Part shown: positions 52,219 to 59,703 of the stretch, piece by piece
Numbering within the stretch: the first letter of the stretch is position 1
How the letters are laid out: each line of letters opens with the position of its first letter
DNA from: Oceanobacillus indicireducens
Lineage (GTDB): Bacteria > Bacillota > Bacilli > Bacillales > Amphibacillaceae
Direction of reading: 5' to 3'
Assembly: GCF_014647195.1 (NCBI RefSeq)
Contig: NZ_BMOS01000011.1
Location: 64,858 to 128,857 of the forward strand
DNA: 64,000 nucleotides
The notes under the pieces: model-generated
Told to the model about the DNA's origin: nothing
What the model saw: the letters and a program-made list of their open reading frames with translations, nothing else
Databases searched by the model: none
Program-made: the position numbers and the translations under genes

Positions 52219-52253
52219 AAAAAAGGTACTGCATATCCGAAGATGCAGTACCC
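52219..52253 (-). terminator. Terminator of the mannitol-ptsI operon
   Basis: Perfect 10-bp stem GGTACTGCAT / ATGCAGTACC; on the minus strand it is followed by TTTTTT. It lies just past the ptsI stop. Confidence 0.92.
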
Positions 52254-52271: not shown

Positions 52272-53993
52272 TTAAGCCTTGTTCACCAATTGATCAATAA
52301 ACTCAACAACCTCATCCGTCGTACTCATCGCCAACAATTCTTCCTTATGGGAAGCAATCTGTTCTTTTGAGAGCTTGCTTAATTGTGTCCGGGCAGGGAG
52401 GATGGATGTTGCACTCATGCTGAATTCATCTAGTCCAAGTCCTAACAGAATCGGAATAGCAATCGGGTCTCCAGCCATTTCACCGCACATGCCGGCCCAT
52501 TTCCCTTCTTTGTGAGCTGCTTCAATCACATTATTGACTAAGTTCAAGATTGCCGGATGGTACGGTTGATAGAGATAAGAAACCTGTTCATTCATCCGGT
52601 CAGCAGCCATTGTATATTGGATAAGGTCATTCGTTCCAATACTGAAGAAGTCGACTTCTTTGGCAAATTGTGCAGCAGTTACAGCCGTAGATGGAATTTC
52701 GACCATAATTCCGACTTCGATATTCTCGGCAACTTTAATACCTTCAGCTGCTAAATTTTCCTTTTCATCGAGTAGGATTCCTTTTGCCCGACGGAATTCT
52801 TCCAGTGTTGCAATCATCGGGAACATGATTTTTAAGTTCCCAAAGGCACTTGCCCGGAGGAGGGCACGTAACTGCGGGCGGAAAACATCTTCATTTTCCA
52901 GGCAGAAACGAATCGCACGGAAGCCTAGGAATGGGTTTAATTCTTTCGGCAAATCCATGTAGTCCAGCTCTTTATCGCCCCCGATATCTAGCGTACGGAC
53001 GACAACTGGTTTGTCACCCATCTGTTCAAGCACGGATTTATATGCTTCGAATTGTTCTTCTTCAGATGGCAGTTCACTTTTACCCATGTATAGGAATTCA
53101 GTCCGGTAAAGGCCGACACCTTCTGCTCCGTTATGAAGTGCACCTGCTACGTCATCTGGAGTGCCAATATTCGCTGCAAGTTCGACTTGAGCACCGTCTT
53201 TTGTAATAGTAGGCTCGTCTTTTAATTTAGCCCACTCTTCACGTTGTTTCGCGTAAGCCTCTTGTTTTTCTCTATATGTTGCCAGTTCCTCATCGGTTGG
53301 ATGGACGATGACGTTACCTTCTAGTCCATCAATAATGATGAGATCATTTTGTGAAACGGATTCGGTGATATTTTTCGTTCCGACAACGGCAGGTATTTCG
53401 AGTGATCTCGCCATAATGGCAGAATGTGAAGTCCGGCCACCTATGTCTGTTGCGAATCCTTGAACAAACTCGCGATTCAATTGCGCAGTGTCGGACGGTG
53501 TTAAGTCCTCGGCGATAATGACGACCTCTTCGTCAATCAATGCAGGGTTCGGGAAGGTGACACCAAGTATATGTGCCATGACCCGTTTCGTAACATCCTT
53601 AATATCTGCGGCACGTTCCCGCATATATTCGTTGTCCATGTTTTCGAACATATCGATGAACATCGTGGATACTTCTTCTACAGCAGTTGCTGCAATAACC
53701 TTATCCGTTTCGATTTTTTCTTTCATTGGATTAATTAATTCCGGGTCATTTAAAATTAAGAGATGAGCAGAGAAAATCGCAGCATGATCCTCGCCAAGCT
53801 TATTTTCCGTATGCTCTTTGATTTTCTCGAGTTCTGTTCTAGAAACTTCCAATGCTTGTTCTAGCCGACTTATCTCTTCCTCCGTATTTTCGGTCGTTAC
53901 TTTTTCAAAGGATAAGTCTGGTGTTACGAGTTGATATGCTTTAGCAATCGCTATACCAGGTGATGCTGCAATTCCATTTAATTGTATGTTCAT
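52272..53993 (-). CDS. ptsI: PTS enzyme I (phosphoenolpyruvate-protein phosphotransferase)
   Basis: First enzyme of the sugar phosphotransferase system: takes phosphate from PEP to HPr. 573 aa, the standard length. The phosphorylated His190 is in [13 protein letters not shown]; the PEP-binding barrel has [14 protein letters not shown] and the catalytic Cys region [12 protein letters not shown]. It is the last gene of the mannitol operon, 39 bp after mtlD, with only a modest ribosome site (AGGGGTTGG). In B. subtilis ptsI follows ptsH; no ptsH is present here. It may be the only EI or a second one; the window cannot tell. Confidence 0.95.
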
Positions 53994-54032: not shown

Positions 54033-55184
54033 TTAGTCTCCTCTTTCATTATACGCGTTTAAAATAACTTTAAGCAAGGGATGTCCCGCTTCCAATCCGG
54101 AAACTTCTTTTAGTGCTTCTTGGACACCCTGATCTGCAATCATCTTTTGTAACTTTACTGCTTCATTATCTTGTTCATTGGTAAATTTGAGAGCTGCTGC
54201 GATTGTTTTTGCGAGATAGGTTGGTTCTTTCCCAGTTACGTCCATATACATGGATGCCGGGCGAATAAGTCGTTCTCTCGCGCCTAGCTTACGGATTGGA
54301 CCTCTTGCTACTCTTGTGATTTCATCTGAAATATATGGATTCATAAAGCGGCCGATAATTTTTTCAGTATAAGCTTGATGTTCTTCCCGGTTAAAGTCGT
54401 ATGTTCGAATTAATGCTTCGCCTGACTCATGCAATGCGCCTTTAATGATTTCTTGTACCTTTTCGTCATTAATTGCTTCTGTAATGGTTTGATATCCCAT
54501 TTGATGACCGACATAAGCGACGGCTGCGTGACCAGAATTTACCGTGAATAGCTTACGTTCGATATAAGGGGTGAGATCATCCACGAAAGTGATCCCATTA
54601 ACATCTGGCTTGGTACCTTTGATTGCAGGTTCTTCAACAACCCATTCATAGTAAGGTTCTACAGAAACTTGGAGTAAATTGTCATGTTTCTGGTTCGGTA
54701 CAATTCGGTCCACCGCTGCATCTGGGAAGCCGAACAAGTTATCAATTGTTGTCTTTTCTTCTTGTGTCAGGTGTTCGTAAACTTTCTCCTTTAAAAAGGA
54801 AGTGCCACCGACCATGTTTTCACAGGCGATAATATTCAGCGGTTGATTAGTTGTTTTAGCTCGTTCTTTCAAACCCTTAGCGATGAGCCCAGCAATGATT
54901 GGCAATACATTTGGCCCGACAGCAGTTGTAATCATATCCGCATGGACAATCGCCTGGATGACTTTACCCGGGTCTTGGATACTGTTAATTCCGGAAATAT
55001 TTTTAACGGTTAAGGATTCGCTTTCCTCTGTTGCTAGTACGACGGTGTATTGTTTTTTCTCATTGATTTCTTTAATCACTGCTTCATTCACATCAACAAA
55101 TGTTGTATGATATCCCGCTTGATGGAGTAATAAACCAATAAAACCACGTCCAATATTGCCTGCACCAAAATGTACTGCTTCCAT
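54033..55184 (-). CDS. mtlD: Mannitol-1-phosphate 5-dehydrogenase
   Basis: Oxidises mannitol-1-phosphate to fructose-6-phosphate with NAD. 383 aa, usual length. N-terminal dinucleotide site HFGAGNIGRGFIGLLL; NSGHAAVAYVGHQMGY and the following region hold the catalytic Lys/His of the polyol dehydrogenase family. Its ATG is adjacent to the mtlF stop (TAA-ATG), with GAGGTG as ribosome site inside mtlF, so translation is coupled. Confidence 0.97.
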   Translation of the reverse strand: MEAVHFGAGNIGRGFIGLLLHQAGYHTTFVDVNEAVIKEINEKKQYTVVLATEESESLTVKNISGINSIQDPGKVIQAIVHADMITTAVGPNVLPIIAGLIAKGLKERAKTTNQPLNIIACENMVGGTSFLKEKVYEHLTQEEKTTIDNLFGFPDAAVDRIVPNQKHDNLLQVSVEPYYEWVVEEPAIKGTKPDVNGITFVDDLTPYIERKLFTVNSGHAAVAYVGHQMGYQTITEAINDEKVQEIIKGALHESGEALIRTYDFNREEHQAYTEKIIGRFMNPYISDEITRVARGPIRKLGARERLIRPASMYMDVTGKEPTYLAKTIAAALKFTNEQDNEAVKLQKMIADQGVQEALKEVSGLEAGHPLLKVILNAYNERGD

Positions 55185-55622
55185 TTAGTTCACCTCCTCA
55201 AAGATACGAATGATTTCTTCTTCTGACGCTGCGTCAAGAATCGATTGGATATTGTCTTCATCGGAAAGCACGATTGCGATATTGGAGAGAATATCTAAGT
55301 GCTCGTCTCCTTTACCAGCAATACCGATTAAGATTTTCACCGTGTTGCCATCTCCATACTCTACACCTTCCGGGACGGTAACGACAGATAAGCCCGATTC
55401 ATTCACTAATGACTTCGCATCTTCTGTACCATGTGGAATAGCGACGAAGTTCCCCATAAAGGTCGATGTTAATTCTTCCCGTTCAAACATTTTATCAATA
55501 TAGGAAGGTTCGACATAGCCATTATTTACTAAAATTTGACCTGCGTAGCGAATCGCTTCTTCCTGATTTTTTAATGAAACATTCAACTTAATATTTTCTT
55601 TTGCTAATACTTCTTTTGCCAT
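55185..55622 (-). CDS. mtlF: Mannitol PTS EIIA component
   Basis: 145 aa. Accepts phosphate from HPr on His64 (GNFVAIPHGTEDAKS) and passes it to EIIB of MtlA. The start is put at ATG 55622 (MAKEVLAKENI), which matches the family, with AAGGAG 11 bases upstream; GTG codons 12 bases further up are in frame but lie at the ribosome site. It lies between mtlR and mtlD. Confidence 0.95.
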   Translation of the reverse strand: MAKEVLAKENIKLNVSLKNQEEAIRYAGQILVNNGYVEPSYIDKMFEREELTSTFMGNFVAIPHGTEDAKSLVNESGLSVVTVPEGVEYGDGNTVKILIGIAGKGDEHLDILSNIAIVLSDEDNIQSILDAASEEEIIRIFEEVN

Positions 55623-55671
55623 GGTAAACACCACTCCTTACATAGAGATTGTTCAAAAAGCTCATTAAAAA

Positions 55672-57726
55672 CTATAGTAACCTTTTATCCTTTAAAAACG
55701 TTTGAAAACGCTCGGCTAAGTAGAATTTGATTGCCGTTTCATCAGCAGATTCAAATAAACGAACTGCTTCGTCTTCCTGGATGAGCAAGCTGCTTAAATA
55801 ACTTAGTGTTTCTAAACTTTCTTGCTGAATATCTTTGGGGGCAAGCATGACTAGGATATGTTTCACTTCCATCTCTTTTCCGTCCATTCCCCTCATTGGT
55901 CGCGGATTTTCTAACACATAAATTGAAAAATGGATGGAAGGCACGTCTCTAGAACGTGTATGGAAAAGTGCCAAGTTCGTATCTGGTATCCCGAGCCCGC
56001 CAACTTGCTCCCTTTCCATTAGTTTAGTAAAAACCGTTTCGCTGTTCTTTATTCTTTTCCGCTTTTCCAAATCGATACAAATCGCTCGCAACGTTGATTC
56101 TGAGTGATTCCGTTCATCGACATAGAAGGAATGGAGCAGGTCAAGAATTGTTTCGGTATAAAGCTTGATGGCCTCTAACTGCAAAAGCGAATTCGGATTA
56201 CTTTTTTGCTTTTCATTATTTACAACGAGTCTCTGCTGGCGAATTGCTTTCTTAATCTGCTGGACTTCTGATTGATTTAACATTGGAGAAACGAGAATAT
56301 AATCGGTTTCCTCCAGCTCTTTTAAGGGAAGCGTTGAAATGATTAAATCGTATTGATCCAAGTCTTCCTCGTCTACATCGAACATCGATTTGTTTTCTAT
56401 TTGCTTAATTTCCGGCACTTGTTTCATTAATTGAGTTGCTAAGATTTTCGCCGTGCCAATCCCACTGGAGCAAATAACAAGAGCCTTTTGTCTTTCACCT
56501 TTCAGTAATGCAGCTGCAAAATGGAGGACGATAAATCCAATTTCATCATCCGGGAAATCTAAATCGGGAAAAATGACGCTCGTCGCTTCTCCAATTAAAT
56601 GAAACAAATCATCATAGTCATGTTTAATCTGCTCGATCATTGGATTCGTAATCTTCATCCGCTTATTAATCCGGTAAATGGCCGGTTTCAAATGGGTAAC
56701 TAAATCATTTAGTAATTGATTGTTTCCCATCATATCCACATGAATCTGTTTACTTACATAAGCAATTAACTGCTTAACCTGATAGGCAAATCCTGTGTTC
56801 TCTACTTCTAATAAAACATGTTGGTCTGAGCGAAGTTTCGCTCCCATTAAATGCATGGTAATATAACCGATCTCATCGTTGGGGATGCTGATCTCCAAGC
56901 TTGTTCCCAATTCGCTGATGATTTTTTCCGCTATCTTATATTCTTTTGTACCCTGTAACTGTTCGAAATATGCCTGGTCAAATTGAATCGTATCCCCTTT
57001 TTGCAGTCGTTCGATTGCGAGTGCAAGGTGGACAACTAAACCGACGCGTGCACTATCGGCTAATTCATAGGGGAGCTTTGTACTTGCTTGTTCCACCGTT
57101 TTTTCAATTACTCGTAATTTATCTGGATCGACGAGTCCCAATAAGCGGTTGGAAATGGTTGGCGTCTGTTTGTTTTGGATGTTTTCCTTTAGTAGGGAAA
57201 TGAAGGAGAAAGGGTCCACATATTTGGCAATTAAATGCGTAATTGCGGACCGCTTATTCGCTTCATCTCCTTCAATTTGCACGCCATATCCTCTGCGACG
57301 GGTAAGTGTTAAGTGAAAGTTCTCTAATTCCGCTTCCAATTGATCCAAGTCGTTACTGATTGTCGCAACGGTTACATCCAATTCGTGAGCAAGGGTGAAT
57401 AATTTCACCGGCTCATTCGCTTCAAGCAACATGGATAGAATCATTGCTTGTCTTTCTTCTTGGGTATAGTCATTCGGACTAATACTTGTAAGCAGCCGTT
57501 CTAATAATTGTTGATCTGCTTGTTCACCAACGATTTGAAGCCCGACACCAGCCTTTTTATCAAGCTCCATCCGGTGGTTTAAAAGGATTTTTTCAACACC
57601 TTTTAAATCCCGGTGAATCGTCCGTGGGCTGACGTCAAGGGCTTCAGCAAGATCTCCTACTGTCACTTGTACTTGCTTTTGAAGTAAGAAAAGAATGATT
57701 TTTCCTTCCCGCGCTGTAATACTCAA
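55672..57726 (-). CDS. mtlR: Mannitol operon activator MtlR
   Basis: 684 aa PTS-controlled activator. Domain order: HTH (KQVQVTVGDLAEALDVSPRTIHRDL, ~15-40), a second HTH-like region, PRD1 (~190-290) and PRD2 (~300-400) with their regulatory His, an EIIB-Gat-like domain with the phosphorylatable Cys in VICSSGIGTAK (~418), and an EIIA-Mtl-like domain (~530-680) with His in LALFHTRSRD. Phosphorylation by HPr and the mannitol EII sets activity in the known homologues. TTG start with GGGGGAG upstream, 16 bp after mtlA. Confidence 0.95.
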   Translation of the reverse strand: MSITAREGKIILFLLQKQVQVTVGDLAEALDVSPRTIHRDLKGVEKILLNHRMELDKKAGVGLQIVGEQADQQLLERLLTSISPNDYTQEERQAMILSMLLEANEPVKLFTLAHELDVTVATISNDLDQLEAELENFHLTLTRRRGYGVQIEGDEANKRSAITHLIAKYVDPFSFISLLKENIQNKQTPTISNRLLGLVDPDKLRVIEKTVEQASTKLPYELADSARVGLVVHLALAIERLQKGDTIQFDQAYFEQLQGTKEYKIAEKIISELGTSLEISIPNDEIGYITMHLMGAKLRSDQHVLLEVENTGFAYQVKQLIAYVSKQIHVDMMGNNQLLNDLVTHLKPAIYRINKRMKITNPMIEQIKHDYDDLFHLIGEATSVIFPDLDFPDDEIGFIVLHFAAALLKGERQKALVICSSGIGTAKILATQLMKQVPEIKQIENKSMFDVDEEDLDQYDLIISTLPLKELEETDYILVSPMLNQSEVQQIKKAIRQQRLVVNNEKQKSNPNSLLQLEAIKLYTETILDLLHSFYVDERNHSESTLRAICIDLEKRKRIKNSETVFTKLMEREQVGGLGIPDTNLALFHTRSRDVPSIHFSIYVLENPRPMRGMDGKEMEVKHILVMLAPKDIQQESLETLSYLSSLLIQEDEAVRLFESADETAIKFYLAERFQTFLKDKRLL

Positions 57727-57742: not shown

Positions 57743-59530
57743 TTAATTATCTTTCAGGCGCTCTACCAGCTCGTCATATTTCGGGCTGCTCAAGAAATTA
57801 TCAACGGAAATATGTTCCGCCGTTGGAAGCTTATTCTTCGCACGATTCGTCAAATCCTTATGGGTGATGACAATATCTGCATCATCCGGGATGTCATTAA
57901 TCGCTTTATTCGTTACGAAAATATCGATATCTGCCTTCTTGAATTTATTTTTAAGTAACGAGGCACCCATCGCACTTGAACCCATACCAGCATCACAAGC
58001 GAAGATAATTTTATTTACTTCTTCTTTCTCATGTTCTGGTTCAGGTGCTGTTTCTTCTGTCCCTTGATCTGAGTCATCTGTTACTTCTCCTGTAAGCAAT
58101 CGATCTATGAGTTCATCGTATTTCGGACTGTTCAGGAAGTTATCGACAGAAATATGCTCAGCTGTTGGAACTTTTGCCTTTGCACGATCAGTCAAGTCTT
58201 TATGGGTGATAACTATATCCGCGTCATTTGGAATATCATTGATTGCTTTATTCGTTACGGAAATGTCGATATCCAATTTCTTGAATTTATTTTTCAGAAG
58301 GGATGCACCCATTGCGCTTGAGCCCATACCAGCATCACAGGCGAAAATAATTTTATCGATTTGTTCTGGTTTTTTCTTTTGGATGGTGACTGTTTTTATA
58401 ATGTCTTCATTTTCTTCTTCATCTTGGTTCAAAGCACCTGTAACAGAGCTTTTCTTCCCTTTCATTTCTTCCATTTTACCTGTTGCATCTGCCAAACTAT
58501 CCGTTTCGGTTTTGCTTGATTTTAAAATGATAGCAGAAATAACAAAGGTAACAGCAGCTGCCACTAGAACACCTAGGATTACACCAAGATAACTGTCTTG
58601 TGCCGTCATTGCAAGGACAGCGAAAATACTACCAGGTGATGAAGGTGCAACTAATCCTGCGCCAAACAGCTGGAACATGAACACACCGCTCACACCACCA
58701 GCGATTACTGCAAGAATTAGAATTGGTTTCATCAATACGTAAGGGAAATAAATTTCATGTATCCCACCGAAGAACTGAATGATTGCTGCCCCCGGTGCAG
58801 AACTCTTGGAAGCGCCTTTACCAAATATCATGAATGCGAGTAATATCCCGATACCCGGACCAGGGTTTGCTTCCAGTAAGAATAGAATTGATTTTCCAAC
58901 TTCACTCGCTTGATCTGCACCAATCGGACTTAATATCCCGTGGTTAATTGCATTATTTAAGAATAAAATTTTCGCAGGTTCAATAATGATGTTGGCAAGT
59001 GGTAATAACCCCGCATTAATAATCACTCCGACCCCTGCTGCAAGCATTGTGTTCAATCCTTCAACTACTGGTCCAATTGCATAGACAGCAACAATCGCAA
59101 GTAATGCTGCCAAAATCCCTGCAGAGAAGTTATTGTAAAGCATCTCAAACCCTTGACGAATCTTCGCCTGGAAGAGATCATCTATTTTCTTCATTAAATA
59201 GCCGGCAAGTGGTCCCATAACCATAGCACCGAGGAACATTGGAATATCCGCTCCGACGATAACTCCCATCGTAGCCGTAGCACCAACAATTCCACCACGT
59301 ATGTCATAGACCATCCGACCGCCTGTAAACCCTATCAATAATGGCAATAAGTAGTGCAGCATCGGGTCAACCATTGTTGCCAATTGTGCATTTGGCAACC
59401 AACCATCTTCAATAAATAAAGCCGTTATAATCCCCCAAGCAATAAATGCACCGATGTTCGGCATGATCATTCCGCTTAAATAACTACCGAACTGTTGCGC
59501 TTTTGCTCGAATGCCCTTCTGTTCAGCCAT
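57743..59530 (-). CDS. mtlA: Mannitol PTS EIICBB permease with two EIIB domains
   Basis: Imports and phosphorylates mannitol. 595 aa from ATG 59530 (AAAGGGAG eight bases upstream; a GTG nine bases earlier is in frame). Residues ~10-340 are the EIIC membrane domain, with GGIHEIYFPYVLMKP of the substrate site. Then, unlike the usual EIICB of ~470-510 aa, there are two EIIB domains: Cys398 and Cys512, each in IIFACDAGMGSSAMGASLL. The two are 77/88 identical and joined by a ~28-residue acidic linker. Both keep every motif residue. The operon's EIIA is separate (mtlF). Confidence 0.95.
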   Translation of the reverse strand: MAEQKGIRAKAQQFGSYLSGMIMPNIGAFIAWGIITALFIEDGWLPNAQLATMVDPMLHYLLPLLIGFTGGRMVYDIRGGIVGATATMGVIVGADIPMFLGAMVMGPLAGYLMKKIDDLFQAKIRQGFEMLYNNFSAGILAALLAIVAVYAIGPVVEGLNTMLAAGVGVIINAGLLPLANIIIEPAKILFLNNAINHGILSPIGADQASEVGKSILFLLEANPGPGIGILLAFMIFGKGASKSSAPGAAIIQFFGGIHEIYFPYVLMKPILILAVIAGGVSGVFMFQLFGAGLVAPSSPGSIFAVLAMTAQDSYLGVILGVLVAAAVTFVISAIILKSSKTETDSLADATGKMEEMKGKKSSVTGALNQDEEENEDIIKTVTIQKKKPEQIDKIIFACDAGMGSSAMGASLLKNKFKKLDIDISVTNKAINDIPNDADIVITHKDLTDRAKAKVPTAEHISVDNFLNSPKYDELIDRLLTGEVTDDSDQGTEETAPEPEHEKEEVNKIIFACDAGMGSSAMGASLLKNKFKKADIDIFVTNKAINDIPDDADIVITHKDLTNRAKNKLPTAEHISVDNFLSSPKYDELVERLKDN

Positions 59531-59703
59531 TTTACACACTCCCTTTAAAGTAATATCCTATACTTTTATTCTAGAGTAATACGCTCACACTACTCAATGG
59601 AATCTAAACATAACTTTGGCAAGGGACTTGTTGCCATCATTTGAATTGGTTGTCTCTGCTGTTACTATGCCCATTTTAAGTGATAAGATAAACTTGAGAA
59701 TAC

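Follow-up and report, generated by a model that had tools for sequence, protein, structure and literature searches.

We analysed a window of 64,000 bp (the whole stretch of DNA under study) from Oceanobacillus indicireducens and found that its mannitol permease gene, mtlA, encodes one membrane domain followed by two complete EIIB domains in tandem, an EIICBB layout. Both EIIB copies keep an intact cysteine loop and carry the marks of purifying selection, the gene heads a run of mannitol genes, and the same layout recurs in other Bacilli. The reading that best accounts for these observations is that each permease would hold two interchangeable phosphoryl carriers, to which, on the sequence evidence, we give a probability of about 0.5.

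Organization of the mtlA gene and its predicted product

The coordinates of mtlA, its domains and the neighbouring genes are collected in Table 1. The ORF is read from an ATG at 59,530, with the ribosome-site-like sequence AAAGGGAG on its 5' side, and codes for 595 residues before the stop. Pfam recognized one PTS_EIIC and two PTS_IIB stretches in the product, in agreement with the initial annotation, which had described two complete EIIB domains after EIIC with Cys398 and Cys512; the loop ACDAGMGSSAMG was complete in both. The EIIC domain scored above the cut-off of the mannitol subfamily, and both EIIB copies were of the mannitol type, with a full domain and the cysteine loop. EIIB-2 matched the solved mannitol EIIB structure 1vkr (E 2e-27, aligned residues 2-87 of 90) and also 1vrv. 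The two copies were identical at 77 of 90 residues; the 77/88 reported earlier differs only by the domain end chosen. A structure model of the protein (mean pLDDT 50.8, 8 sequences), usable for the two EIIB domains only, showed two folded EIIB domains with low-confidence linkers, EIIB-1 (pLDDT block means 67-84) having the same order of strands and helices as EIIB-2.

Table 1 Features of the mtl region (positions are those of the window)
Feature	Position	Strand	Basis
mtlA, mannitol permease EIICBB, 595 aa	57743..59530	-	ORF and domain searches
EIIC membrane domain, residues 10-347	58490..59503	-	TIGR00851 557 bits, cut-off 468; PF02378
Linker 1, between EIIC and EIIB-1, residues 348-391	58358..58489	-	sequence; pLDDT <50 at 339-384
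EIIB-1, residues 392-481; Cys398 at 58337-58339	58088..58357	-	PF02302 393-476; model
Linker 2, acidic, between EIIB-1 and EIIB-2, residues 482-505	58016..58087	-	sequence; pLDDT <50 at 482-502
EIIB-2, residues 506-595; Cys512 at 57995-57997	57746..58015	-	two PF02302 stretches in protein; 1vkr match
Likely ribosome binding site AAAGGGAG of mtlA	59539..59546	-	sequence
mtlR-type activator: HTH, two PRD, EIIB-like and EIIA-like domains	55672..57726	-	Pfam; EIIB-like stretch slightly below cut-off
mtlF, separate EIIA	55185..55634	-	PF00359
mtlD, mannitol-1-phosphate 5-dehydrogenase	54033..55184	-	NF002652 586 bits, cut-off 356
ptsI paralogue (enzyme I), last gene of run	52272..53993	-	TIGR01417 810 bits
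Terminator-like hairpin 3' of ptsI	52224..52253	-	hairpin scan: 10 such sites in region, 6.9 expected by chance

Two other assignments were considered and rejected. An EIICBA permease would carry a C-terminal EIIA, and a Pfam scan of the window MtlA found no EIIA domain (PF00359); the whole protein scored 814 against the MtlA EIICBA model NF011663 (cut-off 589), and its best matched stretch stopped at profile position 483 of 639. Nor does EIIB-2 fit a non-catalytic EIIB' of the FruA type, the cysteine being present in both copies. The product is best described as a predicted mannitol PTS permease with a tandem-duplicated EIIB, for which mannitol transport and phosphorylation are the expected activities.

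The gene is the first of a minus-strand run, mtlA-mtlR-mtlF-mtlD-ptsI, and accordingly has the three companions, mtlF, mtlD and mtlR, looked for beside an mtlA. Since no EIIA domain was found in MtlA and mtlF is a separate gene downstream, MtlF, acting in trans, is the most likely source of EIIA. Besides the ptsI that ends the run, the genome carries another one (G000:C35), and ptsI also follows mtlD in a one-EIIB relative (L218), in Bacillus taeanensis (L073) and in Ammoniphilus resinae (L110). No link was found between the two-EIIB layout and a ptsI in this position, which occurred, besides the window, in 1 of 20 two-EIIB and 1 of 20 one-EIIB operons. The genome also holds a diverged second mtlD-mtlF-mtlA set (L036, G000:C30:4-858), with 55% MtlA identity, that runs off the contig end.

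Age of the duplication and constraint on both copies

The DNA of the first and second EIIB (hereafter B1 and B2) was 76.7% identical, with 63 of 270 bases different: 13, 7 and 43 differences at first, second and third codon positions, of 90 each. The corresponding dN was 0.107 and dS about 2.9 (ratio about 0.04), so that silent sites are saturated. These values bear out the initial annotation on two counts, the many third-position differences and an old duplication kept by selection rather than a fresh one.

The same two-EIIB layout was present in Oceanobacillus alkalisoli (L069), another species with a separate assembly, whose best matched segment was 90% identical over query residues 1-220 of 220. 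Between the two species dS was 0.26 for B1 and 0.56 for B2, whereas between B1 and B2 inside each genome it was 2.9 (window) and 1.1 (O. alkalisoli). The distance within the gene exceeds that between species; the duplication therefore predates their split, and nothing points to recent conversion. Since the split, dN/dS was about 0.07 for B1, 0.025 for B2 and 0.05 for EIIC. Only 4 (B1) and 3 (B2) amino-acid-changing differences underlie the first two values; both copies seem to be under constraint. An assembly or sequencing artefact, suggested earlier as a way in which the doubled EIIB might prove spurious, could be suspected in a draft genome of 89 contigs; it is nevertheless hardly credible in view of the layout shared with O. 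alkalisoli and of the many bases that distinguish the copies.

Distribution of the tandem

The two-EIIB layout is rare in the family, recurrent in the order and not unique to the window. Of 28 genomes sampled from the genus, 22 had an MtlA match, and only that of the window's genome covered both EIIB domains. The family sample gave 100 matching genomes out of 159, three of them with the tandem (G000, G155, G084); as the other 97 showed no tandem, the objection raised earlier, that most Bacillaceae MtlA might have this layout, is not borne out by the sample. Of 397 genomes sampled from the order, 247 matched and at least 37, from nine family codes, had the tandem; in 35 of these a single match spanned it, and in two (G238, G470) a pair of matches lay in one frame. 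Under family code f20 it was present in all 14 matching genomes listed. The class sample had 199 matching genomes out of 398; among the matches listed, six genomes (the window's included) had a window-type tandem, and in seven the second domain of the tandem was degenerate. Overall, the matches listed showed no tandem in most of the sampled relatives that had one. The recurrence across Bacilli, together with the loss of the second-copy cysteine in eight relatives (see below), was not foreseen.

Beyond the Bacilli no tandem was found in 12 matching genomes (phylum sample of 299 genomes, 19 matches at 1e-28), each of which had one EIIB-sized match; the frame was 454-492 aa long in eleven of them and 638 aa in the twelfth. 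As regards spread by plasmids, no plasmid-borne window-type tandem was found among the 15 matches listed of 34 plasmid records, where both pieces fell on the length of one domain. A profile search of 398 genomes reported a tandem as separate single domains.

Carriers of two EIIB domains include Virgibacillus halotolerans, Halobacillus alkaliphilus, H. halophilus, Bacillus taeanensis, Sinobaca qinghaiensis, Peribacillus frigoritolerans, Metabacillus idriensis and Geomicrobium species. Bacillus taeanensis has two such mtlA genes (L073, L188) and, if genome G210 belongs to this species, a one-EIIB mtlA as well (G210:C57), which would offer a possible natural test of redundancy. In Geomicrobium sp. 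JCM 19039 (L081) the frame of the two-EIIB mtlA is broken inside the first EIIB. The set of loci comprised 140 distinct MtlA-type proteins, 54 with two EIIB and 86 counted as having one, a ratio that does not measure prevalence because many loci came from the tandem query.

Two fates of the second EIIB

The loop ACDAGMGSSAMG was present in the first copy of all 54 two-EIIB proteins and in both copies of 46. The other eight (L180-L187; family codes f72, f51 and f87), from Bacilli resembling Lactobacillales, had a second domain that lacked both the loop and the cysteine and shared at most 37% identity with the first copy. Among named organisms, Lactiplantibacillus plantarum and Enterococcus faecalis have mtlA genes on plasmids whose products show the same cysteine-less second domain, for which reason we call this form Lactobacillales-type; among the loci it comprises L180-L187, L193 and L194. 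The degenerate form occurred on three plasmid records, in two of which the protein was read.

Pfam recognized just one EIIB in each of four proteins of the cysteine-less form. All ten two-domain proteins tested passed the cut-off of the NCBIfam IICBA model, as did the window MtlA, and Pfam found no EIIA in the latter or in the nine of the ten that were scanned. The L. plantarum protein of this form is annotated IICBA, and no IIA was found in it. Automatic naming can therefore hide the layout, two-EIIB proteins passing a model named IICBA with no IIA found.

Phylogeny and origin of the doubling

A tree of 122 EIIC domains (from 122 of the 140 proteins; long branches and near-copies, 18 in all and including the eight with a cysteine-less second domain, were excluded) required 12 changes of layout by parsimony, at least four of them forced by starred branches, gains not being told from losses. 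The 12 may be 11, because L081 was counted as one-EIIB though it is a frame-broken two-EIIB gene. In a tree of 60 EIIB domains, whose fine structure is weak because only 89 columns were available, the copies of one lineage tended to group together, and B1 and B2 grouped on starred branches in L074, L147, L148, L123, L188 and the f20 rows. Topology tests rejected a single clade of all B1 (p 7e-55) and a single clade of all B2 (p 3e-46); they used a plain model with a bootstrap not fully settled, and 20 of the 54 two-EIIB and 20 of the 86 one-EIIB proteins, picked after the first tree was seen. Rejection of one shared B1 or B2 lineage leads to either repeated duplication or homogenisation of the copies within lineages.

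From these trees, related bacteria seem to have acquired the doubling on more than one occasion. A single duplication in an ancestor within Bacilli, with later gene conversion and many losses, would be compatible with any function and is a less probable history, although parts of the trees fit it. All members of an EIIC clade with support 93 (not starred), which comprises Sinobaca, codes f35 and f3 and Geomicrobium, are two-EIIB if the frame-broken L081 is counted, and in L074 and L147 of this clade B1 pairs with B2; for this nearly all-two-EIIB clade, copy conversion is as likely as repeated duplication. Against a single origin, however, a tree with all B1 and B2 set apart from the single EIIB was rejected (p 3e-6), the one-EIIB L100 pairs with the two-EIIB L123 on a starred branch, and the dS comparison of the window and O. 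alkalisoli gave no sign of recent conversion. The recurrence of the doubled EIIB hints that it is useful to the bacterium.

Proposed function of the second EIIB

In mannitol permeases EIIB takes phosphate from EIIA and gives it to mannitol at EIIC. In the window MtlA, MtlF would phosphorylate both Cys398 and Cys512, and both domains would deliver phosphate to the one EIIC by means of flexible linkers; each permease would then have two tethered phosphoryl carriers in place of one, the second most likely raising or buffering the local supply of EIIB. The initial annotation had suggested a higher phosphoryl flux or, as another option, signalling by one copy to MtlR. For a permease whose intact EIIB domains, two in number, sit on linkers left without structure by the model, two parallel carriers are the simplest mechanism. 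The complete loops, the low dN/dS between the copies and the retention of both loops in 46 of 54 proteins speak for them, as do the match of EIIB-2 to solved mannitol EIIB and the recurrence of the layout. In 14 lineages keeping both loops, compared with hand-picked outgroups, none of the single-lineage tests of B1 against B2 rates was significant (paired p = 0.22; nine lineages leaned to B1 and three to B2), which lends no support there to a clear division of labour and favours interchangeable carriers. On the other side, profile scores leaned towards faster divergence for B1, in 10 of the 14 (Wilcoxon p = 0.04, a weak result, with a profile built from 77 of the 86 one-EIIB proteins that favours single-like copies). 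This lean would fit some specialisation and counts against two equal carriers, as do the fact that a phosphorylation-dependent signalling role could also explain the intact loops and the finding that most sampled relatives had no tandem among their listed matches.

Such specialisation might consist in one EIIB feeding mannitol and the other mainly docking or controlling MtlR. A review (PMC8560693, citing Bouraoui 2013) describes the B. subtilis mannitol permease as tethering MtlR, another paper (PMC3217849) has MtlR inactivated through phosphorylation by the mannitol transporter, and the EIIB' of E. coli FruA is said (PMC6872149) to serve protein contacts and not phosphoryl transfer. In B. subtilis, MtlR becomes active when the EIIB of MtlA keeps it at the membrane, so that with a second EIIB signalling would be separated from transport. 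Among the four genes sought, mtlR was next downstream of mtlA in 52 of the 54 two-EIIB proteins, and upstream in L185, but it also adjoins mtlA in 69 of the 86 one-EIIB rows, and related rows are not independent. The eight relatives with a cysteine-less second EIIB are what a docking-only copy would be expected to look like, and for Lactobacillales-type proteins they favour a division of labour; in the window, by contrast, the loop is intact in both copies, and the rate difference was significant in none of the lineages tested. We consider this division improbable as a general account. Somewhat more doubtful still is its extended form, in which MtlA of Bacilli would have repeatedly evolved a signalling EIIB, one copy feeding EIIC and the other being a phosphorylation-dependent dock for MtlR, which in the Lactobacillales type, having lost its cysteine, would permanently imitate an unphosphorylated domain.

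Simple tandem duplication with chance retention may also account for the gain. The doubling would then be largely neutral, a tandem of a small domain being easily gained, cheap and lost again by recombination, with selection only keeping the copies foldable. The patchy distribution, with related species lacking the tandem, would agree with this, as would the linker pieces that, read by eye, the duplicated unit seems to take in (e.g. L123, L148). A useless copy would however be expected to lose its loop, and the strong constraint on both copies at saturated synonymous change, together with the presence of the tandem in all 14 listed f20 genomes with a match, makes neutrality unlikely. Whichever role the second copy has, the EIIB of B. 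subtilis MtlA reportedly does two jobs, phosphate carriage and control of MtlR, and its recurrent natural duplication with lineage-specific fates provides ready-made variants for separating them.

Comparison with known systems

Searches of open-access papers turned up no description of a two-EIIB mannitol permease, and one may exist in subscription journals; the MtlA of Streptococcus pneumoniae is called EIIBC in PMC3302838. Among the known systems close to the window protein, the MtlA of Lactobacillales, with a length of about 590-610 aa (L. plantarum WP_172638299.1, E. faecalis WP_002389906.1), has EIIC, EIIB and a second EIIB-like stretch; Streptococcus mutans MtlA is of similar length. In the L. 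plantarum and E. faecalis proteins the second domain has no cysteine, whereas the window MtlA has one in both. The fructose permease FruA of E. coli (IICBB') likewise has a duplicated EIIB, but it is a different permease, and its extra EIIB' is described as taking no part in phosphoryl transfer (PMC6872149), while both window copies keep the cysteine loop. With MtlA of the EIICBA type the window protein shares a score over the model cut-off, yet no EIIA domain was found in it. Finally, the one-EIIB Bacillaceae MtlA, EIICB with a separate MtlF (e.g. Compostibacillus humi, L082), has the same EIIC, the same EIIB loop and the same run of mtlR, mtlF and mtlD, and differs from the window MtlA in having one EIIB instead of two.
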